Shown here: piece by piece, positions 1 to 55,287 of the stretch
How the letters are laid out: each line of letters begins with the position of its first letter
Position numbering within the stretch: the first letter of the stretch is position 1
Assembly (NCBI GenBank): GCA_032622095.1
Contig: CP136066.1
Span: 49,448,911-49,512,910 of the forward strand
Direction of reading: 5' to 3'
DNA from: Siphonodentalium dalli
Taxonomy: Eukaryota; Mollusca; Scaphopoda; Gadilida; Siphonodentaliidae
Length of the DNA stretch: 64,000 bases
Notes under the pieces: generated by a model
The model's database searches: none
What the model was told of the DNA's origin: nothing
What the model saw: the letters and a program-made list of their open reading frames with translations, nothing else
Made by a program: the position numbers and the translations under genes

Positions 1-3000
1 GAAATATTAATATGTGGTCAAATCGCCACCAACAGATGGAATATTAAAATATGTACAGTTTTGTTCATATGCAAACGTAACCAGCGCACGAATAGTGTAT
101 TGTCCTCAAGGTGTACGATGATTGCGTAAACAACAGCATGCTCGTGTTACAGAAGTTTTGCTTCTGTTTACATAACACAACGCAATCATATTGGTTAATC
201 ACACAAACATTATATAAACGCTCTTCATTATTTCCATATAAGAAAAATAGTAACAAACAACGCTCTTTATGCTTACCATACCCGGATCTATACAAAAGTC
301 AGGAAATGTAACGGTTTTTTCCTTTTGTTTGCACAACAAAGTGAAAACGATTGACAATAACATACTGTTTATGCCATATTTCTGTATGATATAACAACAA
401 CTTCTGCCTATATTTTACTATTTCTGTTTATGGCGGTTTTTGACGGAGATGAATATTTTAACAGCATACCCACCGCCAACACCGCCCGTATCTTTAATAT
501 GAGCAATAAAAGATATTTTTTTTATTAATACCAAATGCTCTCATCATACCCAGAAGCTGCACGTTGCATGGAAAATGATATATTGAGATGTCTGCCTAAG
601 GTCGGATTATTTCAAGAGTCTCCCGAATGTCGTTTCATGTTGTTAGGTATATGTATATCATTACATGGTATTGGTTATAATAAGTAAAGGCACGGGCGCC
701 GTTCGTTGCAGAACTATTCATATGTGATCAAATCGCCACCAACAGATGGAATATTAAAATATATATAGCTTTGTCGAGATGTCTCCCTAAGGTCGGATTA
801 TTTCAAGAGTCTCACTAATGTCGTTAATTTTGTTAGCTATATGTATATGTATATCAGTACATGGCATTGGTTATAATAATTAAAGGCACGGGTGGCGTTC
901 GTTGCAGAACTATTCATATGTGATCAAATCGCCACCAACAGATGGAATATTAAAATATATATAGCTTCGTCGAGATGTCTCCCTAAGGTCGGATTATTTC
1001 AAGAGTCTCCCTAATGTCGTTAATTTTGTTAGCTATATGTATATGTATATCAGTACATGGCATTGGTTATAATAATTAAAGGCACGGGCGGTGTTCGTTG
1101 CAGAAATATTAATATGTGGTCAAATCGCCACCAACAGATGGAATATTAAAATATGTACAGTTTTGTTCATATACAAACGTAATCAGCGCATGAATAGTGT
1201 ATTGTCCTCAATGTGTACGATGATTGCGTAAACAACAGCATGCTCGTGTTACAGAAGTTTTGCTTCTGTTTACATAACACAACGCAATCATATTGGTTAA
1301 TCACACAAACATTATATAAACGCTCTTCATTATTTCCATATAAGAAATATAGTAACAAACAACGCTCTTTATGCTTACCATATCCGGATCTATACAAAAG
1401 TCAGGAAACGTAACGTACTGTTTATGCCATAGTTCTGTATGATTTAACAACAAATTCTGCCTATATTTTACTATTTCTGTTTATGGCGGTTTTTGACGGA
1501 GCTGTATATTTTAACAGCATACCCACCGCCAAAGACAGCCCGTATCTTTAATATGAGCAATAAAAGATGTTTTTTTATTAATACCAAATGCTCTCACCAT
1601 ACCCAGAAGCTGCACGTTGCATGGAAAATGATATATTGAGATGTCTGCCTAAGGTCGGATTATTTCAAGAGTCTCCCGAATGTCGTTTCATGTTGTTAGG
1701 TATATGTATATCATTACATGGTATTGGTTATAATAATTAAAGGCACGGGCGGCGTTCGTTGCAGAACTATTCATATGTGATCAAATCACCACCAACAGAT
1801 GGAATATTAAAATATATATAGCTTTGTCGAGATGTCTCCCTAAGGTCGGATTATTTCAAGAGTCTCCCTAATGTCGTTAATTTTGTTAGCTATATGTATA
1901 TGTATATCAGTACATGGCATTGGTTATAATAATTAAAGGCACGGGCCGTGTTCGTTGCAGAAATATTAATATGTGGTCAAATCGCCACCAACAGATGGAA
2001 TATTAAAATATGTACAGTTTTGTTCATATGCAAACGTAATCAGCGCACGAATAGTGTATTGTCCTCAATGTGTACGATGATTGCGTAAACAACAGCATGC
2101 TCGTGTTACAGAAGTTTTGCTTCTGTTTACATAACACAACGCAATCATATTGGTTAATCACACAAACATTATATAAACGCTCTTCATTATTTCCATATAA
2201 GAAAAATAGTGACAAACAACGCTCTTTATGCTTACCATATCCGGATCTATACAAAAGTCAGGAAACGTAACGGTTTTTTCCTTTTGTTTGCACAACAAAG
2301 TGAAAACAATTGACAATAACATACTGTTTATGCCATATTTCTGTATGATATAACAACAACTTCTGCCTATATTTTACTATTTCTGTTTATGGCGGTTTTT
2401 TACGGAAATGAATATTTTAACAGCATACCCACCGCCAACAACGCCCGTATCTTTAATATGAGCAATAAAAGATGTTTTTTTATTAATACCAAATGCTCTC
2501 ACCATACCCAGAAGCTGCACGTTGCATGGACAATTATATATTGAGATGTCTGCCTAAGGTCGGATTATTTCAAGAGTCTCCCGAATGTCGTTTCATGTTG
2601 TTAGGTATATGTATATCATTACATGGTATTGGTTATCATAATTAAAGGCACGGGCGCCGCTCGTTGCAGAACTATTCATATGTGATCAAATCGCCACCAA
2701 CAGATGGAATATTAAAATATATATAGCTTTGTCGAGATGTCTCCCTAAGGTCGGATTATTTCAAGAGTCTCCCTAATGTCGTTAATTTTGTTAGCTATAT
2801 GTATATGTATATCAGTACATGGCATTGATTATAATAATTAAAGGCACGGGTGGCGTTCGTTGCAGAACTATTCATATGTGATCAAATCGCCACCAACAGA
2901 CGGAATATTAAAATATATATAGCTTTGTCGAGATGTCTCCCTAAGGTCGGATTATTTCAAGAGTCTCCCTAATGTCGTTAATTTTGTTAGCTATATGTAT

Positions 3001-4827
3001 ATGTATATCAGTACATGGCATTGGTTATAATAATTAAAGGCACGGGCGGTGTTCGTTGCAGAAATATTAATATGTGGTCAAATCGCCACCAACAGATGGA
3101 ATAATAAAATATGTACAGTTTTGTTCATATGCAAACGTAATCAGCGCATGAATAGTGTATTGTCCTCAATGTGTAAGATGATTGCGTAAACAACAGCATG
3201 CTCGTGTTACAGAAGTTTTGCTTCTGTTTACAAAACACAACGCAATCATATTAGTTAATCACACAAACATTATATAAACGCTCTTCATTATTTCCATATA
3301 AGAAATATAGTAACAAACAACGCTCTTTATGCTTACCATATCCGGATCTATACAAAAGTCAGGAAACGTAACGTACTGTTTATTCCATAGTTCTGTATGA
3401 TATAACAACAAATTCTGCCTATATTATACTATTTCTGTTTATGGCGGTTTTTGACGGAGCTGAATATTTTAACAGCATACCCACCGCCAAAGACAGCCCG
3501 TATCTTTAATATGAGCAATAAAAGATGTTTTTGTTATTAATACCAAATGCTCTCACCATACCCAGAAGCTGCACGTTGCATGGAAAATGATATATTGAGA
3601 TGTCTGCCTAAGGTCGGATTATTTCAAGAGTCTCCCGAATGTCGTTTCATGTTGTTAGGTATATGTATATCATTACATGGTATTGGTTATAATAATTAAA
3701 GGCACGGGCGGCGTTCGTTGCAGAACTATTCATATGTGATCAAATCGCCACCAACAGATGGAATATTAAAATATATATAGCTTTGTCGAGATGTCTCCCT
3801 AAGGTCGGATTATTTCAAGAGTCTCCCTAATGTCGTTAATTTTGTTAGCTATATGTATATGTATATCAGTACATGGCATTGGTTATAATAATTAAAGGCA
3901 CGGGCGGTGTTCGTTGCAGAAATATTAATATGTGGTCAAATCGCCACCAACAGATGGAATATTAAAATATGTACAGTTTTGTTCATATACAAACGTAATC
4001 AGCGCACGAATAGTGTATTGACCTCAATGTGTACGATGATTGCGTAAACAACAGCATGCTCGTGTCACCGAAGTTTTGCTTCTGTTTACATAACACAACG
4101 CAATCATATTGGTTAATCACACAAACATTATATAAACGCTCTTCATTATTTCCATATAAGAAAAATAGTAACAAACAACGCTCTTTATGCTTACCATATC
4201 CGGGTCTATACAAAAGTCAGGAAACGTAACGATTTTTTCCTTTAGTTTGCACAACAAAGTGAAAACAATTGACAATAACATACTGTTTATGCCATATTTC
4301 TGTATGATATAACAAAACATTCTGCCTATATTTTACTATTTCTGTTTATGGCTGTTTTTGAGGGAGATGAATATTTTAACAGCATACCCACCGCCAAAGA
4401 CAGACAGCCGTATCTTTAATATGAGCAATAAAAGATGTTTTTTTATTAATACCAAATGCACTCACCATACCCAGAAGCTGCACGTTGCATGGAAAATGAT
4501 ATATTGAGATGTTTGCCTAAGGTCGGATTATTTCAAGAGTCTCCCGAATGTCGTTTCATGTTGTTAGGTATATGTATATCATTACATGGTATTGGTTATA
4601 ATAGTTAAAGGCACGGGCGGCGTTCGTTGCAGAACTATTCATATGTGATCAAATCGCCACCAACAGATGGAATATTAAAATATATATAGCTGTGTCGAGA
4701 TGTCTCCCTAAGGTCGGATTATTTCAAGAGTCTCCCTAATGTCGTTAATTTTGTTAGCTATATGTATATGTATATCAGTACATGGCATTGGTTATAATAA
4801 TTAAAGGCACGGGCGGTGTTCGTTGCA
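1..4827 (+). repeat. Higher-order satellite built from a TTAA MITE
   Basis: Two unit types alternate. The long unit A (709-713 bp, or 661-662 bp where a 49-bp block is deleted) starts GAAATATTAATATGTGG. The short unit B is 196 bp and starts GAACTATTCATATGTG. Long units start at 1, 1103, 1960, 3061 and 3919; short units start at 711, 907, 1764, 2669, 2865, 3723 and 4632. The order is A-B-B-A(del)-B twice, then A-B. The start-to-start distances 1 to 1960 and 1960 to 3919 are both exactly 1,959 bp, which defines a higher-order repeat. Every unit carries TTAAAGGCACGGGCGG or a close variant, and the long units also carry the opposite end ending CCCGTATCTTTAA, so the array is an amplified MITE plus spacer. 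The recurrent small reading frames inside are not treated as genes. Confidence 0.93.
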
Positions 4828-5660
4828 GAAATATTAATATGTGGTCAAATCGCCACCAACAGATGGAATATTAAAATATGTACAGTTTTGTTCATATGCA
4901 AACGTAATCAGCGCATGAATAGTGTATTGTCCTCAATGTATACGATGATTGCGTAAACAACAGCATGCTCGTGTTACGGAAGTTTTGCTTCTGTTTACAT
5001 AACACAACGCAATTATAGTGGTTAATCACACAAACATTATATAAACGCTCTTTATTATTTCCATATAAGGAAAGTAGTAACAAAAAACGCTCTTTATGTT
5101 TACCATATCCGGATCTAAATAAAACCTAGGAAAGGTAACGTTGTTTGCTTTTGTTTACGTAACACATTTGACGGATGTGAATATGTTAGTAGCATGACCA
5201 CCGCCGACACTGGCCGTATCTTTTATATAGCAATAACAGATTTTTTGTTCGTTTGATACCAAATGCTCTCACCATAACCAGAAGCTTTACGTTGCATAGA
5301 AAATGATATATCGAGATGTCTCGCCATCAACATATGGAATATTAAAGCATTGTTCATATGCAAACATAATGGGGCGTAAATAGTGTATTGTGTAATAGTA
5401 TACTGTCTTCAAGGTGTGCGATGATTGCCAACACCGCCCGTATCTTTGATATAGCAATAAAAGATGTTTTTTTTTCGATTAATAACAAATGCCCTCACCT
5501 TACCCAGAAGCTACGCGTTGCATAGAAAATGATATATCGAGATTCTCCATAAGGTCGGATTATTTCATGAGTCTCCCATGGCTGTTTTTGACGGATGTGA
5601 ATATTTTAACAGCATACCCACTGCCAACGCCGCCCGTATCTTTAATATAGCAATAAGCAG
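4828..5660 (+). repeat. Degenerate edge of the satellite array
   Basis: A sixth long unit begins here in register and follows the array until about 5110. It then breaks into rearranged pieces: the MITE right end (CCGCCCGTATCTTT) recurs near 5446 and 5632, and the poly-T spacer near 5470. Divergence rises toward 5660, as expected at the edge of a tandem array. No gene is visible. Confidence 0.8.
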
Positions 5661-7178
5661 TTATCAACGTACGATATCTCCATTCGTCGTTTATTTACAT
5701 GTCTTCATGGCATATGACACTTTCCGACAAACACTTTAAGGACATTTCTAACGGGACAATGTTTTCGTTTGAAACGTGTCGGGGAGGGGTTGGGTGTCTT
5801 TGTTCAGTCATATACTCATTGTAGCAAATGAACACACCCAGCTTCATATGTCGAGTTGTTTGTAGATGCGATCGCGAATCGCGATGGAGAGTTCAAACAA
5901 TAATGAATATTTCATAATTACCCTCTAATTTGGTTGTTAAAAATAGATAATGACGACGTGTGCATAGATACATTATCAGACAACAAGTGATCATTGAGCG
6001 CTAAACGTTTTAGTTGATTGTTCGATCGTTTTGTAATTATAATAAGCTGGATGCGTGCCGGGCCACATCGTTTGCGCCACCCAGACCTTGCTTTTTGACG
6101 CTGTTGGGAGACAATATTCAGAAGAAAATACTACATGCTTGCATATAGAAATGAAATTGATGAGCGTTTGTACATGTATGGTTTAAAATGAAAGAATCAA
6201 TCGCCGACCCACCCATGGCGATATAGATGCCATTGTTGGATAAATGGGCTAAATTTGTCAGATTTTCTAGTGATGGTAAACGGGGGTATTGTATCGATCC
6301 CCTTGACTTTAACAATACTACCGTACTATTAACGTAAAACGTGCATCCAAACTGCCTCTATCCGAGTACATGTATAATAGGGACAGCGCATAGAGGCCGT
6401 TTGGATGCATGGAATGGGAGCGGAGCGCGTTGCAAGTCCATGTGCACTGGTTAATATATTCATTTCCGCTTTAGCTAACAACTTGCCTGATTGCCAACAA
6501 ATGCATACAGGGCAATTGGCTGCATGATATTATATTGTCCTTATGAAGGCAGCTTGGGGAGGTGCGGTCCGTGTCATGTTTATGTTGCGCACTTGGCAGA
6601 ACCGGCCGTAGGTTAACAATGCTGTTCTCGCTCGAGCTACCGAGATTGGAACACCTGTATATACATACATGTCTATTCTGCACGAGAGCATTTTCCGGTA
6701 TTGCATCATTTGGTTAATGATTTATTTTGGCCGAATTATACCAAATGTGCTTGTCCCTATAAACATGCTGATGTCAACTTCCATGTACCATGCCATGACC
6801 AATGTCCCAATTGTATGGATTGTATCCCGTGCTAAATTATTTAACGACAAAATCCGACCAAGATATGCACCAGAGAACATGTTTTGCCGACGACGCCAAA
6901 TGCAAGTTATTTGTTTTCTCCCTCAACCAGATAACTTATATCAACCGAGGGCGTTTTGTAATAATGTCGTTTGGTCCCAAAAGGTTTGTCCTACTGTTTG
7001 TTTTCTTCCTGAGGGGGTTTTGTCAGAGTACCATGACAAGATATCTGGACATCAATTCAAATTCAGATGTTTATTGAACATGGATTATCATCAGAACAAA
7101 ATGAAAATATAACAATGATGACGATTTTATAAAAAAAAAAACAATGATGACGACTTACATAACATATAATCAAATAAC
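5661..7178. other. No gene recognised
   Basis: Non-repetitive AT-rich DNA between the satellite and the next MITE. A 147-codon frame (6669-7112) and several 60-70-codon frames show no recognisable domain, splice context or composition. Apart from the hairpin at 6342-6409, nothing is supported. Confidence 0.5.
6342..6409. repeat. Short inverted repeat (hairpin)
   Basis: Arms of 19 bp (TGCATCCAAACTGCCTCTA and its near-perfect complement) flank a loop of about 30 bp. This is probably a short fold-back element remnant. Confidence 0.7.
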
Positions 7179-7638
7179 TTAAAGGCACGGGAGGCCTTAA
7201 TTGTCGAAAATATTCATATCTGTTCCAAACACCGTAAACAGAAAATCATTAACACGCTTAGTGTTCAATGCATAAATTATATACCATGACAATCGCGTAA
7301 ACAACAGTATGTTATCATAAAGATCTACTATATTTTATCTGAACAAGAGCCTGGTTGTGTTACAGAAGACAGCACAATGCTGCTGGCTAATCACACACAA
7401 ATGGTATAAACGCTCTTTATTAGTTCCATATCAGGAATTCACCAACAAAGAACGCTCTTTATGTTTACCATAATAATATAAACAAACACCAGAAAAGTAA
7501 CTGTTTATGCTTTTTTTGTTTACATAACAATGGTCAAACATATGTCTACATTTTGATGTTCTTTCTGTTTGTGCCGGTTTTTGACGGGTGGAAACATTTT
7601 GACAGGATACCCACCGCCAAGGCCTCCCGTACCTTTAA
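7179..7638. mobile_element. TTAA-flanked MITE (piggyBac-type target duplication)
   Basis: A 452-bp element bounded on both sides by TTAA. The left end reads AGGCACGGGAGGCC and the right end is its complement with one mismatch. It has no coding capacity. It contains the internal AACGCTCTTTAT motif pair (near 7407 and 7452) that is also in the satellite. A TTAA target duplication is characteristic of the piggyBac superfamily. The relative at 60730-61231 is very similar; the satellite monomers and the element at 10281-10831 share the ends with GGCGG in place of GAGGC. Confidence 0.85.
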
Positions 7639-8359: not shown

Positions 8360-10037
8360 ATGGCTGCAACATTTTCGAAACAGCAAGTGATCGACATGTT
8401 AATGGGAGATGATAGCGATTTTAGCGGAGATTGCGGTTCCTCGTCATCAGAAGATTCAGACGACGATTACTCTGCCCCTGCTACCAGCGACAATGTGACC
8501 TCCATCGATGATAGCAGCTTGAATAATAACCCGATTGGCTGGTCAAATAAACTTTCGAAAGGTATCACTTCAGCCATTTACCCAAAGGACAGGGCCAGTT
8601 ATACCAGATGAATTCGATACTGATACAGCAACAGCTTTGGAATATTTCAATTTTATGTTCTCGCCATCGAAGTATGCCGAAATAGCCAGGCATACTAACA
8701 ACTATGCCAAATGGAAAATGGAAGAAATGGGCGAGACTGATAAATACTGGTCTGATATTTCTGAACTAGAACTTCGTGCGTACATCGGTATGAACATCAT
8801 GATGGGTGTGAATGACCTTCCCTCATACAAGCAGTACTGGTCACATGATGAGTTTATCGGAAACGCCGGCATCAGCAAAGTTATGAATCGGCGCAGATTT
8901 GAAAAAATCACAGAATACTTCCACGTCAGTGACCGAGAGAGCGAACCTGCTAAAGGGACAGATTCGTACGATCCACTATATAAGGTTCGCGACATCATCG
9001 ACTCATCACTAACAACATTGAAATCGTGTTACTTGCCTTCGCAATATATATCTGTCGACGAAGGAATGATAAAATGGACGGGACGTCTCTCCTACAAGCA
9101 ATACATGCCGGCAAAACCAATAAAACGAGGGATCAAAATATGGATGATGTACGATGCCACCAATGCCTACCTGTTAAACTTTGAAGTATACCTCGGAAAG
9201 CATTATTTCAAACCGTCTGGAAAAGGTCTCGGGTATGATGTGGTTACGTCATTGTCATCGGATTTGTGTGACAAAAATTACTGTTTGTTCTTTGATAACT
9301 ATTTTACGAGTGTGCACCTCATGCAGGACTTACTAAACGATGGGTTTTACTCGTGTGGCACCGTTTGGCAGAACAGGAAAGGATTCCCGAAGGATTTACA
9401 GCTACTGAAGAAAATGAATCGAGGTGACTATAACACTAGGCAGGATGGCGAATTTCTCACGGCAACGGTATGGCAGGACAAGAAACAAGTGTTCACCCTT
9501 AGCACGATGACTGACCCAACGACAGATATCATGGCTAATCGGCGCCAGGGAAAAACAATTTTTGAAGTGACTCAGCCGATGAGCATATTCATGTACAACA
9601 AGTACATGAATGGTGTTGACAAACATGATCAGTTGAGGATGACGTATCTCCTCGGTCGCGAAAGGAAAAAAGCATGGAAATGCATCTTCTGGTTGGTCGC
9701 CAATTCATCAATAGTTAACAGTTTCATCTTGTTCAAAGAAATATCAAAGAGACATAATTCTAAGAAGGTGTTCACGCATATGGATTTTAGTATTGAACTG
9801 GCTCATCAATTGATTGCAGAATATTCTTCTAGAAAACTCAAAGCACAAGAAGAGCCACGTGCCCTCAATGTATCACCAGAAAACTCAAACGGACACGTGT
9901 CCACACACATGGGACGCAAGAACCGATGTCGGGTTCATCTGAACTCAAAAGAAAGAAAAGAAACTGTATTTGGTTGCAAACTCTCCAATGTTCATCTATG
10001 TAAGGACGGTTGCCATTTCAAGTATCATTGTAGTTGA
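8360..10037 (+). pseudogene. piggyBac transposase with a single frameshift
   Basis: A DDE/D transposase of the piggyBac superfamily (DDE_Tnp_1_7), which in live elements cuts and pastes DNA at TTAA in the nucleus. The ATG at 8360 has a good context (AACATGG). It opens an acidic, Ser-rich N terminus (residues about 15-50) typical of the family. The N-terminal frame closes at 8609-8611, while the transposase core is open in another frame from 8523 to a stop at 10035-10037, so one indel must lie within 8523-8609. The core shows the three catalytic Asp contexts in order: SVDEGM, FFDNYFTS and NGVDKHDQ, the last including the fourth conserved Asp. The C terminus is a Cys/His-rich, presumably zinc-binding tail ending CKDGCHFKYH, but one usual Cys-x-x-Cys pair reads Cys-x-x-Ser, so it is slightly degenerate. 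Otherwise intact, hence a recently inactivated copy or an assembly error. No terminal repeats were identified. Confidence 0.93.
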
Positions 10038-10280: not shown

Positions 10281-10831
10281 TTAAAGATACGGGCGGCGTT
10301 CGCGATGGGTATGGTGTTAAAACATTCATATCCTTGAAAAACCACCATAAACAGAAGGAATAGTAAGATATGGACAACTTTGTTCTTATACCAATCAGAA
10401 ATATGGCATAAACGGTATGTTATTGTCAATTTGTTCCCCTTTGTTATGTAAACAAAAGCAAAAAAATTACGTTTCATTGCTTTTGTTTAGATCTGGATAT
10501 GACACACATAAAGCGCGTTGTTTGTTACTGTTTTCCTGATAGGGAAATAATAAAGAGCGTTTATATCATTTTTGTATGAATAACCAATAGAATTTCGGTC
10601 TGTTATGTTATTTACGTACACCATTGTACGTCTTGACGACAATACACTATTTACGCGCTGATTATGTTTGGCATATGAGTTGAACTGTATATACATGATA
10701 TATCAGTACACGGCATTGGTTATAATAATTAAAGACACGGGCGTATATACATGTATGTTGGCGTTCATTCTGTTGATGCCGATTTGAACAAATATAAATA
10801 TTTCTGCAACGGATGTCGCCCGTGACTTTAA
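10281..10831 (-). mobile_element. TTAA MITE, inverted, with an internal rearrangement
   Basis: TTAA at both ends. The left end, AGATACGGGCGGCGTT, is the complement of the satellite MITE's right end; the right end, GTCGCCCGTGACT, is the complement of its left end. So the element is in reverse orientation relative to the array at 1-5660. Internally it contains the array's spacer phrase (GGCATTGGTTATAATAATTAAAG, near 10709-10731) followed by another left end, showing that it derives from a tandem junction and not from a simple single MITE. Confidence 0.8.
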
Positions 10832-13075: not shown

Positions 13076-13746
13076 TTATCGCTTGTCCAGGATCATCTAT
13101 AAATTCTGTCCTACTTTCTAGAAAGCCAATGCCCTAAATGAATCAAATTTAAAGGGGATTTGTATATTATTTAAAGGGGCATTGTGTCCTCAGTACGTAT
13201 GTGGCTTATTTCATGCTGTATTAAATTGTAATGATGTTGAGAAAATACTATTGTATAAGTTACTTTAATATAATAGTAAATAAAATGCCATACAAAAACA
13301 CTCATTGTCGAAGCAGTCAGTTGCTATTTGCAATATTGAAATACAGTATATCGAGTTTGAATATACAAGCTCTGTTTAGTTGTTTTGAACAGAAAATTAG
13401 CTATGTGATTTTATTTATATATTACTTTTATAATAAAATACAGGTAGCCCACAATCGTGCTACAATAAAGTAACCCAGTAAGTCATGAGTGTTTGTGAAC
13501 CTGATTCTTTTCATGCAACTTTGTCTTGCGTTGGTTCGTGGAACTGGTTGTAATGAACATATTCTTTCTTAAACAATTAATGAATTTCTTGGCATATATA
13601 TAGCATGGACACCAGTCAGAATAATTTTATTGGTGCCAACAACAATATCAGAAGGTGTATTAAACCATTCGCAATGAATGTGTTATATAATTATTGTTTA
13701 TTGACCTCCAAGTATGAAGAGCTAACGAGTTATGTGGCTTATATTG
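13076..13746. other. No gene recognised
   Basis: Very AT-rich, with only short frames and no recognisable domain or repeat structure. Confidence 0.5.
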
Positions 13747-14640
13747 ACACGTATGAATACCTATACAGTGAAAAATGGGTGGCATACAAAGTCAAATATA
13801 ACTCTTTTGAGTAGTACTCATTAGGGGCAATAGCCTAACCTGTATATGCAATGCGTTGAAACCAGTTATTAGGGAGACATATATAACGAGCACGTACGTG
13901 TCTCCATAATCACGGTTTATCACCTATCAGTTAACTTGAGAAAGTTAATATTCCCACAATACCCGCGTGTGGCTTCTATATATATATGGACACGTATTTA
14001 TATATATACAATAAATAAGTTGGTGGCAAAAAAAGCCAAATATTACTCTTTTGAGTCGCAATCATTGGGGATAATAACATAACGTGTACATATGCAATAC
14101 GTTGCAGAAACATACATGCATGCTGGTTATCTTTGTCTCCTTAATAACGGTTTATTACGTATAAGTTAATCTGAGAAAGTTAATATTCCCACAATACCCA
14201 TATAGTGGCTTCTATAGACACGTATGTATATCAATACAGTAACAAATGAGTGGCATACAAAACAAATATAACACTTTTGAGTTGTAATCTTTAAGGACAA
14301 TAACCTAACATGCATATGCAATGCGTTGATATCCGTCAATAGGGAGACACATATAACCAGCATGTACGTGTCTCCCTAATCATGGTTTATTACATATCAG
14401 TTAATTTGAGAAAGTTAATATTCCCACAGTGTCCACTACGTGGCTTCTATGGACACGTATTTATACCTATACAATAACAAATTGGGTGGCATACAAAGTC
14501 AAATATAAGTCTTTGAGTTGTCATCATTAGGGACAATAACCTAACGTGCATATGCAATGCGTTGAAAACAGTTATTGGGGAGACATATATAACCAACGTG
14601 TACGTGTCTACCTAATCACAGTTTTTTACCTATCAGTTAT
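13747..14640 (+). repeat. Tandem repeat, four copies of ~235 bp
   Basis: Copies start at about 13747, 13989, 14217 and 14452, each beginning GACACGTAT. They continue through a GTGGCATACAAA-like segment, a TATGCAATGCGTTG segment, GGGAGACATATATAAC, GTACGTGTCTCC and GAGAAAGTTAATATTCCCAC. The last copy is truncated near 14640. Spacings of 242, 228 and 235 bp indicate indel divergence. Confidence 0.85.
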
Positions 14641-23525: not shown

Positions 23526-23911
23526 AATGTTGGCCACGCGTGGTTTTGAAAACACCACGGGCCTTGTATACTGTGGTTGACACATCTTGACTTCTAGAAT
23601 ATACCGTGGCGCATCCATTCTAACAATACCCCTCTCCCAATCATGTTGACTTGCTATAGTGAACAGTCATTGAAGTTTTAACTAATCTAGCCGAAATGTA
23701 GGCTAAGCGTTTTTTGGAATGCGTAACCGTCTATGACGTGTCATCGGTCGACCCCATTCATGACTGCTTTGATGGATACGCTCACAGTATGTAGCCCACC
23801 ACGCATGTGTACCGTCATGTATCAATCACCATAACGAATGCAAATTTAGCCCTCCCCGGTTCTTGTAATTTAACAGAACCCAGCTGTTCGAAGCCAAAGT
23901 TAAACTATCTC
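23526..23911. other. No gene recognised
   Basis: Spacer; nothing recognisable. Confidence 0.45.
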
Positions 23912-24882
23912 TTAATTGCTGATTATTAGTGCCTCTTCAAAACCATTATAGGTAAACAAAACCAATCCCGTGACATTCCCTGCGTCATGTCACTTTTTTG
24001 CATCAATTTCTCCACATATCTCCATGAAATAATAATAAACGCTCTTTAATGATTGTATATCAATGAAATCATCTGAGGTCAAAGACGCCTATCACGTGAA
24101 ATCACCTGGTCGGGTGATTCATCTGTACCAATTTTTCTTCATATACTTTGAGCCTATAGCGAATGCCTTCATTGCTCGCATTTGCCCACTAAAGTCGTCT
24201 GAGATCAACGTCATCCGGATAGAGTTTTTTTTTTTTTTTTAATTGCTAATTATTAGTGCATCTTTAAATCGTGTGAGGTCAACACACCCAATCCTTTGAC
24301 ACGCCCTGCGTCATTCCAGTTTTGTCACAAATTTCCCCCACTCATCTTCAGGAATCAAAATAAACGCTCTTTATTGATTATATGACAATGTAAGTCATCT
24401 GAGGTCAAAGACGCCTATCGCGTGACAACCACCTGGTCGGGTGATTCATCTGTACCAGTTTCCCTACATATACTTTGAGCATATAACTAACGCTCTTTAT
24501 TGCTCACATTTGTCCATTAAAATCGTCTGAGATCAGCGGCATCCGGATACAGTTACATTTATCTTTTAATTTCTTATTATTAGTGCATCTTTAAATAATT
24601 TGAGGTAAAAAAAACCCATTCCCTTGACATGCCCTGCGTCATTCGACTTTTGTCACCAATTTTCTCACATATCTTCTGGAATGATGATAAACGCTCTTTA
24701 TTGATTATATACCCATGTAAGTCATCTTGGGTCGAAGATGCCTATCGCGTGACATTCATCAAGTTGGTGGTTCATTTGTACCAATTTTCCTACAAATACT
24801 TTAAACTTATAAAGAACGCTCTTTATTGCTCAAATTTGATCCTTAAAGGCGTCTGAGGTCAACGGCATCTATACCACACTAT
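23912..24882 (+). repeat. Three tandem copies of a ~326-bp unit
   Basis: Copies start at about 23912, 24239 and 24566 (TTAATTnCTnATTATTAGTGC). Each carries CCCTGCGTCATnnnACTTTT-like sequence, an AAACGCTCTTTA word, GGTCAAAGACGCCTATC, GGGTGATTCATCTGTACCA-like sequence and a second CTCTTTATTGCTC-like word. The unit is unrelated to the satellite at 1-5660 apart from the AACGCTCTTTATT word. Confidence 0.88.
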
Positions 24883-25570
24883 ATGGGTCATCCCCGTGTT
24901 TAAACTTACACCGACCAGATTGCAACCATTTTTGGTCTATAATCAATTAGTTAGTTAAATGCGTTGTTATTGCCCCTTTAGGACATCTAATGTCAATGGG
25001 ACCTATCTAATAATATTTTCCGGGCCAAATTACCCATATATCAAACCTCATTAGTAACTGACCAATGTGGTTGTCTACTTAATGCATGGTTTATTCAGAT
25101 GTAATTCTATATCTCCTGTGTCGTAGAAAATATCACCGCAAAATACGTAAATCGAAATATATCTCAGGATTTTGAATTTTAAAAGTTGATATTGAGTAAG
25201 CGGTTTTAATTATAAGATATAACCCATAATCAGTCTTCGTCATGCAAACATATTCCCAAATTAACAGTATTTATCACAATAAAACCAGGTCCCCCTAATG
25301 TCGGTCTGTAACACTGTCAGATATACACTACCGATAATTTAATTGCATATATCTATTAAAATATTCATTCCGCGCAAAAACTATCGACAGTTGGTGAATA
25401 ATAGTGTCACAGAGATCACACATGACAGGAAAAATATATAAATTTGCATGTTAAATTCACTTAAAAAACACGCTAAACATTAGGGGGACACACAAAAAGT
25501 CGCCCTAATGTAAAAGTCGCCCTAATGTGGGTTATTTACACACAAATGTCTCCCTAATGTGGCTTCCGCG

Positions 25571-25620: not shown

Positions 25621-26007
25621 CATTTTCCATAGAGACACATAATGACCAATAACGTAACACGATTTAGTGTAACACACGGAATATTTACATAGTACGTATA
25701 CATTACGTATACACGGACTGACCATGCATTGTAAGCTCTTCTGTAGTAAAAGGGATCAGTGTCTCTATACGGACAGGGGTCCCATTTTTATAGAAAGTAA
25801 CAACATCTTCGATATTTCTGTCAGGTAGGAAAATCAGTTCCTGAGTACATAAAGCCCGTTCCAAGTTGTATTTGTCAATGTTATGTACATGCTTGATCCC
25901 AAGAATGTGACAAGTGTAACACTTAGCAATGTTTATTTCGAGGCTTGGACATTATTTACCACTGCAATGCTCAAATGAGATCAAAACATTAACATATGTA
26001 CATATAT

Positions 26008-26464
26008 GTGACCCGCCATATCAAATCCAGTCGTAAGTCGGGACTTTTTACCCTTTGCCAATGCATTATCTTATATATGCGAGTCGACCATAGGTCGCCT
26101 CGCATATATAAAATAATGCATTGGCCTAACAATTTTTTATCATTTTGTTTAAATAAATGTTTCTTACAATTTTTAGGACATAAAATAAAAAACATCCATT
26201 ACCCTGCAGGGAGCCCCACACATATATATAGAAGCATATAGAAGAGTGTCGTCTGCTCATGTTTGTCTGGGGTTCTGTATGGGTGAAATTATAAAATTGT
26301 TAAAGAATACAAGAAAAAAATATTAAAATTGTAAAAAATTGTTAGGCCAATGCATTCTCTTATATATGCGAGGCGACCTATGGTCGACTCGCATATATAA
26401 GAGAATGCATTGGCACAGAGCAAAAAAATCCCGACTTACGACTGGATTTGATATGGCGGGTCAC
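26008..26464. mobile_element. Fold-back element with ~140-bp terminal inverted repeats, each containing a palindrome
   Basis: Termini are GTGACCCGCC and GGCGGGTCAC. The left arm (26008-26150) and right arm (26325-26464) are near-identical complements. Each arm itself contains an inner hairpin bounded by CCAATGCATT and AATGCATTGG around TATATATGCGAG. ATAT flanks both ends and may be the target duplication. The 170-bp centre is AT-rich and non-coding. It ends about 50 bp before the WSC exon acceptor. Confidence 0.9.
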
Positions 26465-26515
26465 ATATGTTGAAATGTGTATATGAGTCTATTAGATTTT
26501 TGTGTTCAACCACAG

Positions 26516-26656: not shown

Positions 26657-27016
26657 GTGAGCAACAATGAGGAAGAAATCCACGTATCACTTTGTGAAAG
26701 CGTCAATATCATAAAAGTAGAATACACCAGTTCGCTGTTATCATCAAGTTAAACAAATAGCTTAATACATGTGCACATGTTTAGTTCCATAGTATATTGT
26801 ATATGCATGCAATGTATCACTCACAATAAAGCAAGAACGGTTGTTGACTGTCATATGAATATTTAATTAATAGAGCATGGGTTGGAGTTGATTACACCAA
26901 TATAGTACCACGAGGGAGTGAGGTAGTTCCCACCGCGGAGTGGAGGAATTACAGCATCCCCAATGACATTGAATTGGAATAGTGAACTCAAAACCATACT
27001 CTACTCAATAAATATT

Positions 27017-27161
27017 CATATAAGGATTAACTGTCATGTGGACTGTTTTATGGAGATGTAACCGTGAGGTAAGTGGTCATGACTTGTGTAAAAGTTATGA
27101 CCACTTACCTCACGGTTACATCTCCATAAAAACAGTCCACATGACAGTTAATCCTTATATT
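27017..27161. mobile_element. Near-perfect fold-back element in the WSC intron
   Basis: Arms of about 67 bp starting ATATAAGGATTAACTGTCAT and running through GGAGATGTAACCGTGAGG differ only by an extra T and one or two substitutions. The loop is about 8 bp around TGTGTAAA. It would form a long stable hairpin in the pre-mRNA of the WSC gene. Confidence 0.92.
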
Positions 27162-28030
27162 TATATACATTTAGCGAAAACTCCACTTTTGTAAATGTAT
27201 TTACATCGAAAAGTGTATCGTGACAAAACCAGCCCAAAATATCATATAGCACCCTTGGCAAAAGTTAACAGGAACAATTTCTTTATATTGAAACCTGATG
27301 ATTTATTAAGTCAATCCTGCGCGAGTCCAAATGCGCCCAAAACATTACGCGTTCTTCTTTCCAAAACCAATGACTTGGCGATGTAATTATGGGGTTGCAG
27401 TTATGACCTCTTGCGCGTTCACCGAGAAATAACTGCAACTAGTCACATGGGCGCCGACAAATCGGAATGCTGGATTTAGTGATAATCACACTTAATATGT
27501 AAATATATGACAGTCAACGTCTTTTTTTAGTATTTTATCAGCCCGCATTTAAAAATGCAATGTGACAAAGAAGTCCAAATTGAGATGTTCCATAATTATC
27601 ACTCAGATCATCTGTATTTTAAACTGGCATACTTGATGATGTAATCAAAACACAGAGGAACATTTAATTATCCATTTGTTTACCATTTAGGAAACAAACA
27701 AACGGAAATAACGACGCGAATTGATAAAAATTCTCACAAGGAGGCCGATCGACTATGAGACAAAGTAAAATATGGTCGGGGTGTTGTGAAACGTTTTATT
27801 TTTATTTATTTATTGCCGGATTTAAGGCCACATGGCGATCACTATTTGAGGACATAATCTCATATTCATATCCCACATTGAGGAGCTGATAAACTATCGC
27901 AAACTTATTTATATATGTTGTAATTGTGAGTAATGCTTAAAATCAGAAACGGTAATCGTAACTACGGATACGGGGAAAACAACAATGAATAGAAAGAGCA
28001 CAAATTATACTTACGTAACACCCCATTCGT
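27162..28030. other. WSC gene intron, no further feature
   Basis: Intronic sequence by position; no domain or repeat recognised. Confidence 0.5.
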
Positions 28031-30071: not shown

Positions 30072-30860
30072 ATTTTTACTCATGTTATGTTTAAATATTT
30101 CTTTTTTATTAATTAAATATAGCAGTTTTCATCCGCCAATATGTGTGTAAATTATCTACTATGATGTGACATACCCGTATTATAGATTAATACAGATTAA
30201 CAATATGACAGCCATAAGTGTTAACCCTGTGGATTTTGAAGAATATGAACCAAACATGAGTTTGAAAATTTTGCATAGAAAGGTTATTTATGTATTTCCC
30301 CCAAAGGGCATCGATAGAAAATATAGTAATATATGTACAAGTTTACACATACTTATCACAATAAGGAATCCAACCTGTCCGATATAGAATCCCAGAAATG
30401 TGTAATTCAGCTGGGACTGCCTCTAAAAAGAAATGGGTGACTTTAAAAATCGGAAGCTCATTAGCTTTTGTTGCACAAAATCTTCAACTAACAGGCTACA
30501 TGAATGGTTTATCTACACTCATCTGATATAATTTCATAAGTGTTGTTTGACAATGGACACCTAGTGATCTGGCTTAATTGTCTGTGTTTATGGTCTCATG
30601 TCTTGTTGAGAACTTTTCTCCTATTAATTTCTCTAAAATTATATTCTTGCATATGATTTCGTGTGACATATAAATAGCTGAGCCAATACCACAATGCAAA
30701 TAGGGATTGTTTAGTATTCAAAATGGAATGGTGGTCAAAACTTCATTTCTCATACTTCGACGTCCAACATAATAGCTATGGTTAATTTAATATATTTGAA
30801 GTTATTTGTTTTATTCACCATCATACTGCGCAGAATGTGGCCCCACAAAAATGATCTCAG
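30072..30860 (+). repeat. Segmental duplication copy A, left part
   Basis: Collinear with 37546-38265. Both contain CATACCCGTATTATAGATTAA, AATATGACAGCC, TTGCATAGAAAGGTTATTTATG or its diverged version, CACAATGCAAATAGGGATT and AATGGAATGGTGGT. Non-coding. Confidence 0.85.
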
Positions 30861-33800
30861 CATCAGCAGTATCAACAGTTTCAACAGTATCAATCGTATC
30901 AGCAGTATCAACAGTATCAACAATATCAACAGTATCAAAAGTGTCAAAAGTATCAAAAGTATCAACAGTATCAACAGTATCAACAGTATCAACAGTATCA
31001 ACAGTATCAGCAGTATCAACAGTATCAGCAGTATCAACAGTTTCAACAGTATCAGCAGTATCAGCAGTATCAGCAGTATCAGCAGTATCAACAGTTTCAA
31101 CAGTATCAATCGTATCAGCAGTATCAACAGTATCAACAATATCAACAGTATCAAAAGTGTCAAAAGTATCAACAGTATCAACAATATCAACAATATCAGC
31201 AGTATCAGCAGTATCAGCAGTATCAACAGTATCAACAGTATCAGCAGTATCAGCAGTATCAACAGTTTCAACAGTATCAATCGTATCAGCAGTATCAACA
31301 GTATCAACAATATCAACAGTATCAAAAGTGTCAAAAGTATCAAAAGTATCAACAGTATCAACAGTATCAACAGTATCAACAGTATCAACAGTATCAGCAG
31401 TATCAGCAGTATCAGCAGTATCAACAGTATCAGCAGTATCAGCAGTATCAACAGTATCAGCAGTATCAGCAGTATCAACAGTATCAACAGTATCAGCAGT
31501 ATCAGCAGTATCAACAGTTTCAACAGTATCAGCAGTATCAACAGTATCAACAGTATCAACAGTATCAACAGTATCAACAGTATCAACAGTATCAACAGTA
31601 TCAAAAGTATCAACAGTATCAACAGTATCAACAGTATCAACAGTATCAACAGTATCAACAGTATCAACAGTATCAACAGTATCAGCAGTATCAACAGTAT
31701 CAGCAGTATCAGCAGTATCAACAGTATCAGCAGTATCAGCAGTATCAGCAGTATCAACAGTATCAACAATATCAACAGTATCAACAGTATCAGCAGTATC
31801 AACAGTATCAGCAGTATCAGCAGTATCAGCAGTATCAGCAGTATCAACAGTATCAGCAGTATCAGCAGTATCAACAGTATCAGCAGTATCAGCAGTATCA
31901 ACAGTATCAACAGTATCAATCGTATCAGCAGTATCAACAGTATCAACAATATCAACAGTATCAAAAGTGTCAAAAGTATCAACAGTATCAGCAGTATCAG
32001 CAGTATCAACAGTTTCAACAGTATCAATCGTATCAGCAGTATCAACAGTATCAACAATATCAACAGTATCAAAAGTGTCAAAAGTATCAACAGTATCAAC
32101 AGTATCAACAGTATCAACAGTATCAACAGTATCAGCAGTATCAGCAGTATCAATAGTATCAGCAGTATCAGCAGTATCAACAGAATCAACAGTATCAGCA
32201 GTATCAACAGTATCAGCAGTATCAACAGTATCAACAGTATCAACAGTATCAGCAGTATCAGCAGTATCAACAGTATCAGCAGTATCAATCGTATCAGCAG
32301 TATCAACAGTATCAACAGTATCAACAGTATCAGCAGTATCAACAGTATCAGCAGTATCAGCAGTATCAACAGTATCAGCAGTATCAGCAGTATCAGCAGT
32401 ATCAATCGTATCAGCAGTATCAGCAGTATCAACAGTATCAGCAGTATCAACAGTATCAACAGTATCAACAGTATCAACAATATCAGCAGTATCAACAGTA
32501 TCTACAGTATCAACAGTATCAGCAGTATCAACAGTATCAACAATATCAACAATATCAAAAGTGTCAACAGTATCAACAGTATCAGCAGTATCAACAGTAT
32601 CAGCAGTATCAGCAGTATCAGCAGTATCAGCAGTATCAACAGTATCAATCGTATCAACAGTATCAACAGTATCAGCAGTATCAACAGTATCAATCGTATC
32701 AACAGTATCAGCAGTATCAGCAGTATCAACAGTATCAGCAGTATCAGCAGTATCAACAGTATCAACAGTATCAACAGTATCAACAGTATCAGCAGTATCA
32801 ACAGTATCAGCAGTATCAGCAGTATCAACAGTATCAGCAGTATCAGCAGTATCAGCAGTATCAACAGTATCAACAGTATCAACAGTATCAGCAGTATCAA
32901 CAGTATCAACAGTATCAACAGTATCAGCAGTATCAACAGTATCAACAATATCAACAATATCAACAGTATCAGCAGTATCAGCAGTATCAGCAGTATCAGC
33001 AGTATCAGCAGTATCAGCAGTATCAGCAGTATCAACAGTATCAGCAGTATCAGCAGTATCAGCAGTATCAACAGTATCAACAGTATCAACAGTATCAATA
33101 GTATCAGCAGTATCAATAGTATCAACAGTATCAATAGTATCAGCAGTATCAATAGTATCAACAGTATCAACAGTATCAGCAGTATCAATAGTATCAGCAG
33201 TATCAACAGTATCAACAGTATCAATAGTATCAACAGTATCAACAGTATCAACAATATCAACAGTATCAATAGTATCAACAGTATCAGCAGTATCAACAGT
33301 ATCAACAGTATCAATAGTATCAGCAGTATCAACAGTATCAATCGTATCAACAGTATCAGCAGTATCAGCAGTATCAACAGTATCAGCAGTATCAATCGTA
33401 TCAGCAGTATCAACAGTATCAACAGTATCAACAGTATCAGCAGTATCAACAGTATCAGCAGTATCAGCAGTATCAGCAGTATCAACAGTATCAGCAGTAT
33501 CAGCAGTATCAGCAGTATCAACAGTATCAACAGTATCAAAAGTGTCAACAGTATCAGCAGTATCAGCAGTATCAGCAGTATCAACAATATCAACAGTATC
33601 AACAGTATCAACAGTATCAGCAGTATCAGCAGTATCAGCAGTATCAACAGTATCAAAAGTGTCAACAGTATCAGCAGTATCAGCAGTATCAGCAGTATCA
33701 ACAATATCAACAGTATCAACAGTATCAGCAGTATCAGCAGTATCAGCAGTATCAACAATATCAACAATATCAACAATATCAACAGTATCAACAGTATCAG

Positions 33801-34889
33801 CAGTATCAGCAGTATCAGCAGTATCAGCAGTATCAGCAGTATCAGCAGTATCAGCAGTATCAGCAGTATCAGCAGTATCAACAGTATCAACAGTATCAAT
33901 AGTATCAACAGTATCAACAGTATCAGCAATATCAGCAGTATCAACAGTATCAACAGTATCAATAGTATCAGCAGTATCAACAGTATCAATCGTATCAACA
34001 GTATCAGCAGTATCAGCAGTATCAACAGTATCAGCAGTATCAATCGTATCAGCAGTATCAACAGTATCAACAATATCAGCAGTATCAACAGTATCAGCAG
34101 TATCAGCAGTATCAACAGTATCAGCAGTATCAGCAGTATCAGCAGTATCAACAGTATCAACAGTATCAAAAGTGTCAACAGTATCAGCAGTATCAGCAGT
34201 ATCAGCAGTATCAACAGTATCAACAGTATCAGCAGTATCAGCAGTATCAGCAGTATCAACAATATCAACAATATCAACAATATCAACAGTATCAACAGTA
34301 TCAGCAGTATCAGCAGTATCAGCAGTATCAGCAGTATCAGCAGTATCAGCAGTATCAGCAGTATCAACAGTATCAGCAGTATCAATCGTATCAGCAGTAT
34401 CAACAGTATCAACAGTATCAACAGTATCAGCAGTGTCAACAGTATCAGCAGTATCAGCAGTATCAACAGTATCAGCAGTATCAGCAGTATCAACAGTATC
34501 AACAGTATCAGCAGTATCAACAGTATCAGCAGTATCAAAAGTATCAATCGTATCAGCAGTATCAACAGTATCAACAGTATCAACAGTATCAGCAGTATCA
34601 ACAGTATCAGCAGTATCAGCAGTATCAACAGTATCAGCAGTATCAACAGTATCAGCAGTATCAGCAGTATCAGCAGTATCAACAGTATCAGCAGTATCAG
34701 CAGTATCAACAGTATCAGCAGTATCAGCAGTATCAGCAGTATCAGCAGTATCAACAGTATCAACAATATCAACAATATCAAAAGTGTCAACAGTATCAAC
34801 AGTATCAGCAGTATCAACAGTATCAACAGTATCAACAGTATCAGCAGTATCAGCAGTATCAAAAGTATCAGCAGTATCAGCAGTATCAG
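30861..34889 (+). repeat. Nine-bp minisatellite, about 448 units (4.03 kb)
   Basis: The unit is CAGTATCAA or CAGTATCAG, with recurrent variants CAGTTTCAA, CAATCGTAT, CAATAGTAT and AAAGTGTCA. Because 9 is a multiple of 3 and units lack stops in most registers, several frames stay open for the whole array, giving Ser-Ile-Asn, Val-Ser-Thr, Asp-Thr-Ala and Leu-Leu-Ile repeats on the two strands. These are consequences of the repeat and not evidence of genes. The Gln-Tyr-Gln register is also open, from about 30855 to a TAG at 32154-32156. Variant units recur in blocks (the CAGTTTCAA..CAATCG..AAAGTGTCA group near 30877, 31088, 31263 and 32009), showing amplification of multi-unit segments. The array is absent at the paralogous site near 38265-38335. 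Confidence 0.97.
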
Positions 34890-39599: not shown

Positions 39600-41425
39600 G
39601 GAAAACCAGCACATTATCTGCTTATAACAGAACTTCTTTTAGGTAGATAATCTGCTTAGACTCGCCTCATTTTGAGTAGATACTGTATCGACTCATATTG
39701 TAGCGATTCTAATCATATTATGCGCGAATAATGCCACAATACCTAGACTCTTTAGGTGTACGCTTTTTAACATGTGTTTTCACAGTGGTCCGCGCCATAA
39801 AACGAAATAACGGCGATGAGTCAATTAGCTGTTTATTTCAGAATAAAATAATCATATGATGTATCTATTTCACTTTATGTGCGTATTTGCGGCAGAATTC
39901 TGGTCTCTGGTCTAGACCACCCAAATAATCACGGTGTTCCAAGTCAGGACTTGGTCTCGCGAAACAACCTGGTCCCAAGCCGGTGTCGGTGAATTATTGT
40001 ACAATCAACGACAATCAACGGCAATCTATGGACAAAAGCGTGCTGCGCGCTGCATCGATATTGTCGTGTTGGTGTTGCCAAACCTAAATCTCTGTATTGT
40101 ATAGCCGTACCTGTATTCCGTCGCCGGAAGGGTTGTGCGGATTTCTCACCCTCTATGCGGATGTCACGACGTTGTCAGTTTTACGGGTGGAGGAAAGTCT
40201 ACCGACCCAGGAAAGCAACCGACAATCTTGCCGAGATACACGAATCAGATTATCCTCACTTAGCGTGGATCGCGAATCCGCGCTTGTCGATATTCGAACC
40301 AGCTTAGTCAGCGCTAGACGGCATATGGCGGCATTATGCACTGAACATTCTGCCGACGGAAACACCGGGATCCTTTGGAGGGTTGTATCTGAGTCCCGAT
40401 CGCAGACATTTCCAATGCCATATAACTGTTTTCCAAATCATTCTTAAAGACAAATTATGACAAATAAACTAATTTGAAATGTCAAGGCTTAAGAAACTGG
40501 AGCAGGGTTCCCATTTAATTTAATTTTATTCAATTTATCGGACATGTCCTTATTTTGTACCACATAAAATCGTTTTGTCTTAATATAATTTTGATATTTT
40601 TTTCTGTTATATTATAAATCCATTCCAGCAATAATTTATTCCCAAATGATGAATTTTAGTGCTTTCAAAACTAGCTCCGACCTCAATTCATTTCAGAAAC
40701 ACGGTACTAAAGACACCCGCATCCAATACGAATTACCTTCCGATTGCAAAACTACTATCATTCCCTATTTATCCGTGTCGACCACACCCATCGATGACAT
40801 ATTGCGCGCAGAAATAATAGGGAAAATCATATTTAATCACCTAACGGTAGTATGCTTCAAAAAGAACAAATCTCCATTGTAACGCCAACTAAACGCACGC
40901 ATGATTTACAATCAAATTACCAATCTGTATCGTTACTGCGAAACCAGCATCTCGATCAGGTTCAAGTCTCGCTTTATACAATCAACACAGACCAGGGAGG
41001 GATACTAGGTCTCAGTTGTAGACTATTACCTATAACACATAATTATCGATTATATTAAATTGTGTCCTGTGCATATATAATTATAATCTATCATCTATTC
41101 GGCATACCGATATAACACAATTCCTATTTGGTTAACATAAAGATAAATGCTTCCAAAATATACTTATGTTTCTGTTACCAGAACTTGTATGTTACCACAT
41201 GGTTCGAACTATGAACAGACCGCCACAGGCTTGAATGACAATAAGAAGGCAAACCTTGGTTTATGTAAACCTGAATTTCAAAAGGACGAGAATACGGACC
41301 AGTCCGGACCAATAACCTCAGCTTAATCGTTCCGAAGCTAGGTATCACATCGCGATCACCGTGGTTTGAACCTGGTCTAGACTATAGTTTACGCGAAACC
41401 TGGTCCTGACCAGAGACCAGAATTC
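39600..41425. mobile_element. Long-TIR non-autonomous element, copy 1, with flank
   Basis: The element proper runs 39895-41425. It starts GAATTCTGGTCTCTGGTCTA and ends in the complement (GACCAGAGACCAGAATTC), with inner matches ATCACGGTG / CACCGTGGT, so its TIRs are about 80 bp. The 39600-39894 flank (CACATTATCTGCTTATAA, ACATGTGTTTTCAC) is also duplicated beside copy 2. The 116-codon frame at 40097-40447 and smaller frames are not conserved as frames in copy 2, so no protein is called. Confidence 0.8.
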
Positions 41426-41754
41426 GGACGCTAGAATTCTTTGAAATAATAAAATTGTTAAATGTATAATACTACTACACAACTATTAGAAATGCATGAC
41501 TGTTAATGTTATTGCATTCATTGAAAAGTCCAGCAATGTGGAAATTGTCAGTGACATCGCCAAATCAACTTCTTCTGCACCATCAGAAGTCTCATCTTAT
41601 TCTCAATAACTCATATATCACAGAACCCATGCAGTATCCTATTTATCTATCTATTATCCAGCCCCGATATTCACGGACAATCCCGAGAAAAATTATATAT
41701 ACATTCTACAGGGCCCTACGTGACACATAGGGAGGACACCCGAAAAGCCCAGCT
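41426..41754. other. Spacer between element copies
   Basis: No feature seen; a 74-codon frame at 41506-41730 has no support. Confidence 0.45.
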
Positions 41755-44090: not shown

Positions 44091-44989
44091 TCGACCGCAT
44101 GTGCTCACTGTGTAGTTCTCCCTTTCTACCTGATAACATAGATCACCACACGATGTTTAAACCAAAGTATTTCAAATCGTATAGTACAAGGGTTTTATAT
44201 TCAAGTTAACCCAATATGGGATAATTGGACACCTACTGAAATAAGCTGGTTATTATTTAACTTTTCGATCACAACATGTATTGGATTGGCATTTCATTTC
44301 TGATTACGCAACAATCGGAGTTGTTGTGTATTTATTGGGTCGTTTCCCCTTTCTATCTTACATTAACGACATATATTAATAATTGTATTTGTCGACATAT
44401 CTAACACCATCATATCTCTGACTCCTATGTATACTGGTGGTACATGTTTTTTTCAGTGTGAAACCACAAGCTCAGTTTGCCCACACCATCTGACCTCTAT
44501 GTGTACTGGTCGCAAATGTTTTTTTCAGTGTTAAACCGCGAGCTCAGTGCGCAAAGAATCTTACAGACTGATGGTTTTGATCGCATGTCGCAAGGAAAAC
44601 AATAGATGGTTAATTAAAACGCTAAAACAGTAATTATATTATGAATCATCGTAAGTTAAAAATAATGTTCAAGCTCACTTTGCCCAGACCCTCTGATCAC
44701 TATGTATGGTGGTTAATGTTCTAAGCTTATTCTTTCTCTCTCATTAATATATTTGAACCATGATGTAGTTGGTGATAACGCCTCACATAATCTCCCCAAA
44801 TAAGCTCGACTATCTCTAACTGGATTCTGGCTTGTTTCGTTGTTTCTGGTAATACATTTTCGACTGTATCTGGAATGGGGTCCACTTAACGAAGACAACA
44901 ATCTCTCAAGTAAGTAAGAACAATTTATTGGAACATTTGCAATCAAACAAATCACTGACTACGTTGAAAGTCTATTGCCCAATACATTT
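44091..44989. other. Mostly featureless, with short tandem repeats
   Basis: At 44416-44560 a ~75-bp unit (CTCTATGTnTACTGG, ATGTTTTTTTCAGTG, GCTCAGT) occurs twice, with a third decayed copy near 44668-44725. No gene is supported. Confidence 0.55.
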
Positions 44990-55285: not shown

Positions 55286-55287
55286 AT

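Follow-up and report, generated by a model that had tools for sequence, protein, structure and literature searches.

Miniature inverted-repeat transposable elements (MITEs) are a known source of satellite DNA, as set out in passages of two articles that review MITE-derived satellites (PMC9659126, PMC12628747). Among the closest described systems, the Xstir tandem repeats derive from the MITE Xmix by amplification of an internal segment of the element (passages of PMC6004289 and PMC12628747), the Pacific oyster satellites CgiSat13 and CgiSat16, with a period of 2,414 bp, are classified in Repbase as DNA/Kolobok (part of PMC8268682), and in Tetris/TIR-220 of Drosophila virilis transposon ends serve as satellite building blocks, with unequal crossing over as the proposed mechanism (part of PMC4079207). 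Here we analyze a stretch of 64,000 nucleotides from the scaphopod mollusc Siphonodentalium dalli (GenBank assembly GCA_032622095.1, contig CP136066.1, positions 49,448,911 to 49,512,910 of the forward strand), hereafter the window, in which positions 1-4827 form a head-to-tail array made of a TTAA-flanked, Kolobok-like MITE and its flanking DNA, and in which a five-part block of array units is present in two copies.

Like Xstir, this array consists of MITE-derived tandem repeats, but what has been amplified is a whole MITE plus flank, and its units are of two types and form a five-part block. The oyster satellites are alike in being Kolobok-annotated and in having a kilobase period, although theirs differs from the period of the array; the likeness is one of annotation and period only, and the bivalve parallel is an analogy. 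Unlike the units described here, those of Tetris/TIR-220 belong to a foldback element and sit within its inverted repeats (part of PMC4079207). The terms 'higher-order' and 'HOR' have no whole-word occurrence in the main text of PMC8268682, neither 'higher-order' nor 'higher order' occurs in PMC4079207, and no MITE-derived higher-order repeat of such form was found in the open-licence literature as judged by titles, beginnings of abstracts and passages (including PMC10048060, PMC5874043 and PMC5139131). The kind of array is already known, as is the biological principle itself, and its two-type, five-part organization with a captured flank is a well-preserved instance. The value of the locus is that one stretch shows stages usually inferred from separate loci, namely a dispersed MITE, a tandem MITE with flank, two monomer types, a first block duplication and an edge in decay. 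Should the locus prove to vary within populations, the beginnings of higher-order repeats could be studied there directly.

Organization of the array

Units were delimited by a motif that recurs at every boundary. The window edge sets the unit start used; the natural start is the TTAA some 27 bp to the left of it. Column 17 of the alignment of unit heads, a left-end base that separates A from B, belongs with the following unit. The array is cut on its left side at window position 1, and 4.8 kb of it are in view. This delimitation yields 12 head-to-tail units on the plus strand in the order A-B-B-A'-B / A-B-B-A'-B / A-B, where A' denotes an A unit with a 49-bp deletion: A1 (1-710, 710 bp, the left element end lying off the window), B1 (711-906), B2 (907-1102), A2 (1103-1763, of A' form, 661 bp), B3 (1764-1959), A3 (1960-2668, 709 bp), B4 (2669-2864), B5 (2865-3060), A4 (3061-3722, of A' form, 662 bp), B6 (3723-3918), A5 (3919-4631) and B7 (4632-4827), followed from 4828 by a diverged A6. 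All seven B units are exactly 196 bp long, and in the alignment a 49-column block is present in A1, A3 and A5 and missing from A2 and A4. The 12 units form a head-to-tail tandem with homogenization within each type, as in a satellite.

The units are grouped into higher-order unit 1 (A1-B1-B2-A2-B3, 1-1959, plus strand, its left neighbor lying beyond the window edge) and higher-order unit 2 (A3-B4-B5-A4-B6, 1960-3918, plus strand), so that both the repeated A-B-B-A(del)-B form and the exact length of 1,959 bp for each complete unit, which had been noted in the first-pass annotation, are borne out by the unit map. A third block is incomplete. It consists of a plain A5-B7 dimer (3919-4827, plus strand) with a single B, and is followed by the diverged A6 and a scrambled edge; this dimer is 96.35-97.55% identical to the dimers A1-B1, A2-B3, A3-B4 and A4-B6. 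Because the window holds only two complete five-part blocks, the array documents one duplication of the five-part unit. The earlier view that an element was captured in tandem, diversified and then re-copied as a diversified block is retained, with the difference that what the window shows is one duplication of the block and not a repeatedly amplified satellite.

Comparison of the two five-part blocks

Alignment of 1-1959 with 1960-3918 gave 98.4% identity across 1,958 aligned positions, with two gap columns. Two of the differences are single-base indels and 31 are substitutions, with 15 transitions among the latter; substitution divergence is 1.58% (1.60% after Jukes-Cantor correction). Chance origin of the 1,959-bp periodicity is excluded: ungapped identity at lag 1959 over positions 1-3918, a measure in which indels shift the register, is 0.593, whereas 200 single-base shuffles reached at most 0.308. 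The first-pass annotation had named, as an outcome that would speak against a higher-order structure, a block identity no higher than that of neighboring A units. The value of 98.4% lies above those of the neighboring pairs within 1-3918, which are 97.3% for A1-A2, 97.1% for A2-A3 and 96.7% for A3-A4, as is characteristic of a higher-order repeat. Primate alpha-satellite higher-order repeats are alike in that similarity within a type far exceeds that between types and in that a multi-unit block is repeated; those form long arrays, whereas here there are two block copies at 98.4% identity and no known link to a centromere.

The five-part register can be followed in the individual A units. Units at the same position in the two blocks are 97.7% (A1-A3) and 98.6% (A2-A4) identical, a margin over neighbors that is modest for single pairs. 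When the 49-bp block is scored as one site, all ten informative sites among A1-A4 group A1 with A3 and A2 with A4, none favors either alternative, and 26 more variable sites carry no such grouping. Summed differences over 660 gap-free columns are 24 for this grouping versus 40 and 40 for the others, and it was recovered in 1000 out of 1000 column bootstraps. The dispersed MITE copies at 10281 and 60730 retain the 49-bp block, as read from the alignment, and its loss is therefore a derived state common to A2 and A4.

Several observations weigh against this register. A FastTree phylogeny of A1-A6 recovers the same groups with only moderate local support (0.76-0.82), and informative columns 480, 484 and 487 lie within eight columns and may represent one event, which would leave eight sites. 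The B units back the register weakly, since same-position pairs differ by 2, 2 and 2 bases and the six cross-position pairs by 4, 3, 4, 1, 5 and 3; with B differences this much less clear, the register rests mainly on the A units. At the ten informative sites A5 resembles A1/A3 at six, A2/A4 at three and neither at one, a mixture that could result from exchange or reflect the ancestral state. Finally, only two complete five-part units are in view.

The 33 block differences are not significantly clustered over ten bins (p 0.35), and there is thus no sign of a recent conversion tract. Such an even spread of a 1.6% divergence, together with the presence of just two units in view, would also fit the two blocks being alleles of a single five-part stretch that the assembler joined in tandem inside the repeat, as about 1.6% is a plausible allelic distance in a highly heterozygous animal. 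The array is tandem regardless, however, given that A5-B7-A6 follow with the A5-B7 dimer at the identities stated above, so that the artifact would be confined to the five-part register, and we found no sign of a join, though one inside a repeat would leave none. We consider this explanation improbable and retain a genuine block duplication.

The age of this duplication cannot be read from the lengths of its copies. It had been suggested that equal lengths point to a recent last round of amplification. That argument falls because A1 and A3 (710 and 709 bp) and A2 and A4 (661 and 662 bp) each differ by one single-base indel, in or beside T runs, and these two 1-bp indels compensate each other; equal lengths are therefore uninformative on age. 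The 1.6% substitution divergence is the sole clock at hand, and by this measure the duplication does not appear clearly recent.

The A and B unit types

In TTAA phase A3 consists of a 524-bp element, both TTAA included (1933-2456, plus strand), a complete Kolobok-like MITE recognized by its TTAA and by its inverted ends; the next 185 bp (2457-2641, plus strand) are spacer, the flank that was co-amplified with it. Equivalent plus-strand MITEs, identified by the same features, lie at 1076-1551, 3034-3509 and 3892-4419 and also in A1, whose left end is off the window. In the alignment a TTAA-phased B unit (2838-3033, plus strand, 196 bp) has the MITE left end fused to the terminal part of the spacer. 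The first-pass description of A as a TTAA MITE plus spacer and of B as the left end plus spacer thus applies, except that B also lacks roughly the first 85 bp of the spacer. Relative to A3, B has lost 518 bp; the net difference between 196 and 709 bp is 513, because B has in addition gained 6 bp and lost 1 bp. In the shared part, mean divergence is 1.59% among A units (10 pairs), 1.52% among B units (21 pairs) and 8.3% between A and B (35 pairs, range 6.91-9.57%), the A-B comparison also showing indels of 1 and 6 bp.

We considered whether B is a shortened form of present-day A and rejected this on the polarity of seven fixed A/B differences in the left end of the element. Dispersed relatives carry the B base at four of these sites (at one of which a relative has a third base), the A base at two and neither at one; for the last three of the seven, only two relatives supply the evidence, since the sequences entered for the copies near 10831 and 7179 were their first 60 and 70 bases. 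The decayed A6 has the A base at all seven. Since the relatives are split in this way, A and B each have their own derived bases, and these polarities indicate that B is a sister lineage of A and no recent derivative of it.

The 196-bp length of B is of a size typical of satellites and might point to an older satellite of spacer monomers that a MITE invaded. Yet there is no spacer-only unit among the 12, and all seven B units have the left end of the element; we regard an invaded satellite as extremely improbable.

Element ends and family assignment

In A2-A5 and in all three complete dispersed copies the element is bounded by TTAA on both sides, and 11 of the 12 left ends in the array have TTAA, the exception at 684 being GTAA. 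AG follows at 12/12 left ends in the array and at the right ends of 5/5 A units; these ends were listed with patterns that themselves contain AG, and the counts equal the 12 boundaries found by another motif plus the five A units. Six of the seven ends of dispersed copies have AG, and the left end at 55060 has AT. Beyond TTAA the array ends read AGGCACGGG on the left and AGATACGG on the right, the first five bases being AGGCA and AGATA, respectively. Over 18 bases the inverted ends match at 13, 13, 13 and 9 positions in A2-A5 and at 15, 13 and 12 in the complete dispersed copies. We dropped the notion that right ends decay faster in the array than in dispersed copies, as A2-A4 (13/18) fall within the dispersed range of 12-15/18 and only A5 (9/18) is lower. 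With up to three mismatches allowed, the window has 27 occurrences of the terminal motif versus 0.11 expected; the exact 25-base motif has no match in a viral or in a prokaryote collection.

According to passages of PMC6004289, TTAA is the target of Kolobok elements and their termini are RR, with AGGRR in the T2-MITEs. The T2-MITE/Kolobok elements of Xenopus described there resemble the MITE of the array in their TTAA target, AG at most termini, short length, lack of a long open frame and inverted ends; the left ends in the array also begin AGG, but neither AGGCA nor AGATA agrees with the T2 motif AGGRR. The more general Kolobok traits, a TTAA target duplication and RR termini, are present, with one exception among the dispersed ends, the AT at 55060. 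piggyBac elements target TTAA too, and have CCY-type termini. As the termini here begin with AG, the piggyBac MITE trait of TTAA followed by CCY is absent, and on these terminal bases we rejected assignment of the MITE to the piggyBac-type transposase located 3.7 kb away. The TTAA-then-AG ends fit Kolobok better than that transposase. No Kolobok transposase was found among 6 of the 33 listed open reading frames of the window that were scanned with Pfam, the sole transposase being piggyBac-type.

This piggyBac-type frame (8523-10037, plus strand) matches DDE_Tnp_1_7 in Pfam (E 1.1e-87) and is similar to the piggyBat transposase (E 9.2e-44). Upstream of it an acidic, serine-rich stretch, which may be the N-terminal part of the transposase, is in a different frame and runs into a stop, and the gene therefore looks broken. 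We did not find element ends belonging to the gene when 19 left and 22 right TTAA sites were scanned for inverted ends; two pairings emerged, 7179/10831 and 5606/10320, and both are MITE sequence. Relatives of the transposase in viral contigs amounted to two pattern matches, none confirmed.

Dispersed relatives and the right edge of the array

Outside the array the window contains four relatives of the MITE, three of them complete. Motif search and alignment identified two complete plus-strand copies with TTAA on both sides (7179-7638 and 60730-61232), and BLAST and alignment identified an inverted copy with TTAA on both sides (10281-10831, minus strand), interrupted at about 10699-10743 by a B-like piece, and a left part only (55060-55291, plus strand). 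The three complete copies have short flanks unlike the spacer of the array.

The interrupting piece at 10699-10743 is about 45 bp long and consists of spacer tail, TTAA and left end. It is flanked on both sides by GTATATACATG and, at the two diagnostic positions of the tail within its span, agrees with B and not with A. Possibly it was inserted during repair, with a unit of the array as template. Its junction of spacer tail and left end inside another MITE copy could also be taken to mean that the A unit and its spacer together form a single larger mobile element, the array having arisen during its transposition or from a circular copy. The piece is short, however, and lies within a reverse-oriented element; BLAST (E up to 1) finds the spacer elsewhere in the window only at the array edge, bar short weak matches such as that at 25516-25560 (76%), and a TTAA-bounded element without spacer occurs at three complete dispersed sites. 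We give a larger element very little credence and treat the spacer as captured flank.

The right edge of the array (4828-5656, plus strand) is decayed and scrambled. In TTAA-phased numbering, mosaic alignment resolves it into pieces in the order 1-365, 466-619, 50-130, 133-152, 502-650 and 457-536, the first piece starting at 4801, at 75-93% identity to the unit. The outermost element ends at 5645, with about 11 bp of spacer after it and a match up to 5656.

The edge bears on how the array started. In the double-insertion model of tandem array origin, reportedly due to McGurk and Barbash, two MITEs would have landed at TTAA sites some 185 bp from each other, and the array would have been seeded when these two copies underwent unequal exchange. 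Consistent with this, the array elements all have one orientation and MITE relatives are dense in the window, with the four outside the array. The model expects unrelated flank beyond the last element, whereas the outermost one still has its short piece of spacer, which in so scrambled an edge is not decisive. A double insertion seems to us possible but unlikely, and it would be a start of the array within the explanation that we prefer, which is set out below, and no alternative to the later steps.

Proposed origin of the array

Probably a TTAA MITE and its flank were amplified in tandem, the units split into two lineages, a five-part block was duplicated once and the edge decayed. A Kolobok-like MITE, whose TTAA ends are still in place, would have inserted at a TTAA. 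This MITE and about 185 bp of flank would then have been duplicated in tandem through ordinary recombination or replication errors, and not through transposition alone, which we infer because every unit has the same flank or part of it. The unit would have split into the A and B lineages, now two diverged types, and the B lineage would have lost its 518 bp by an internal deletion, which the alignment displays. Unequal exchange, the presumed agent, would have built the A-B array with A', carrying the 49-bp deletion, and the doubled B, with the order of the doubling and the deletion likewise presumed. The A-B-B-A'-B block, of which two copies are seen, would have been duplicated once, and the right edge, visibly decayed, would have changed through deletions and rearrangements, as happens where the margins of tandem arrays escape homogenization.

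Positions 1-5700 contain no closed stop-to-stop frame of at least 100 amino acids (aa); with open ends allowed, there are 19 frames of at least 60 aa, the longest of 77 aa. A search of the window with Rfam at gathering thresholds and an ARAGORN tRNA scan returned nothing. Most likely the array is without a selected function and behaves as a neutral or selfish tandem repeat.

The outer core of the left end, AAAGGCACGGG, is unchanged in all left ends inside the window (11 of the 12 units plus A6, B units included), and the bases just inside it vary. This constancy would be expected if retained transposon ends drive the array, a transposase cutting at the ends and repair of the resulting breaks building or reshuffling the higher-order structure; the B-like piece in the MITE copy 6 kb away would then be a repair by-product. 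The core is short, however, and its constancy may be due to chance or recent common descent. We view an end-driven array as very unlikely.

Other features of the window

The window contains other repeats. At 30858-34888 a 4-kb array holds about 448 copies of the 9-bp unit CAGTATCAA and has several open frames on each strand, of up to 1437 aa from stop to stop including flanks. Further tandem arrays occupy 13734-14639 (period about 235 bp), 23906-24869 (about 327 bp) and 56594-57276 (about 62 bp). Two near-palindromes, at 26004-26468 and 27004-27174, are 77% and 89.5% identical to their own reverse complements and are possibly foldback elements. A direct repeat of about 1.1 kb occurs at 40381-41426 and again at 43004-44093, the two copies being 81% identical. 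The motifs ACATGTAT and ATACATGT are common in molluscs. They occur 8 and 8 times in the window versus 4.8 and 2.7 expected from trinucleotides, which decides nothing. A plus-strand frame at 48885-49535 matches the PAN_1 domain (E 3e-06), and at 61508-61629 a perfect 60-bp tandem duplication lies within a minus-strand open frame.

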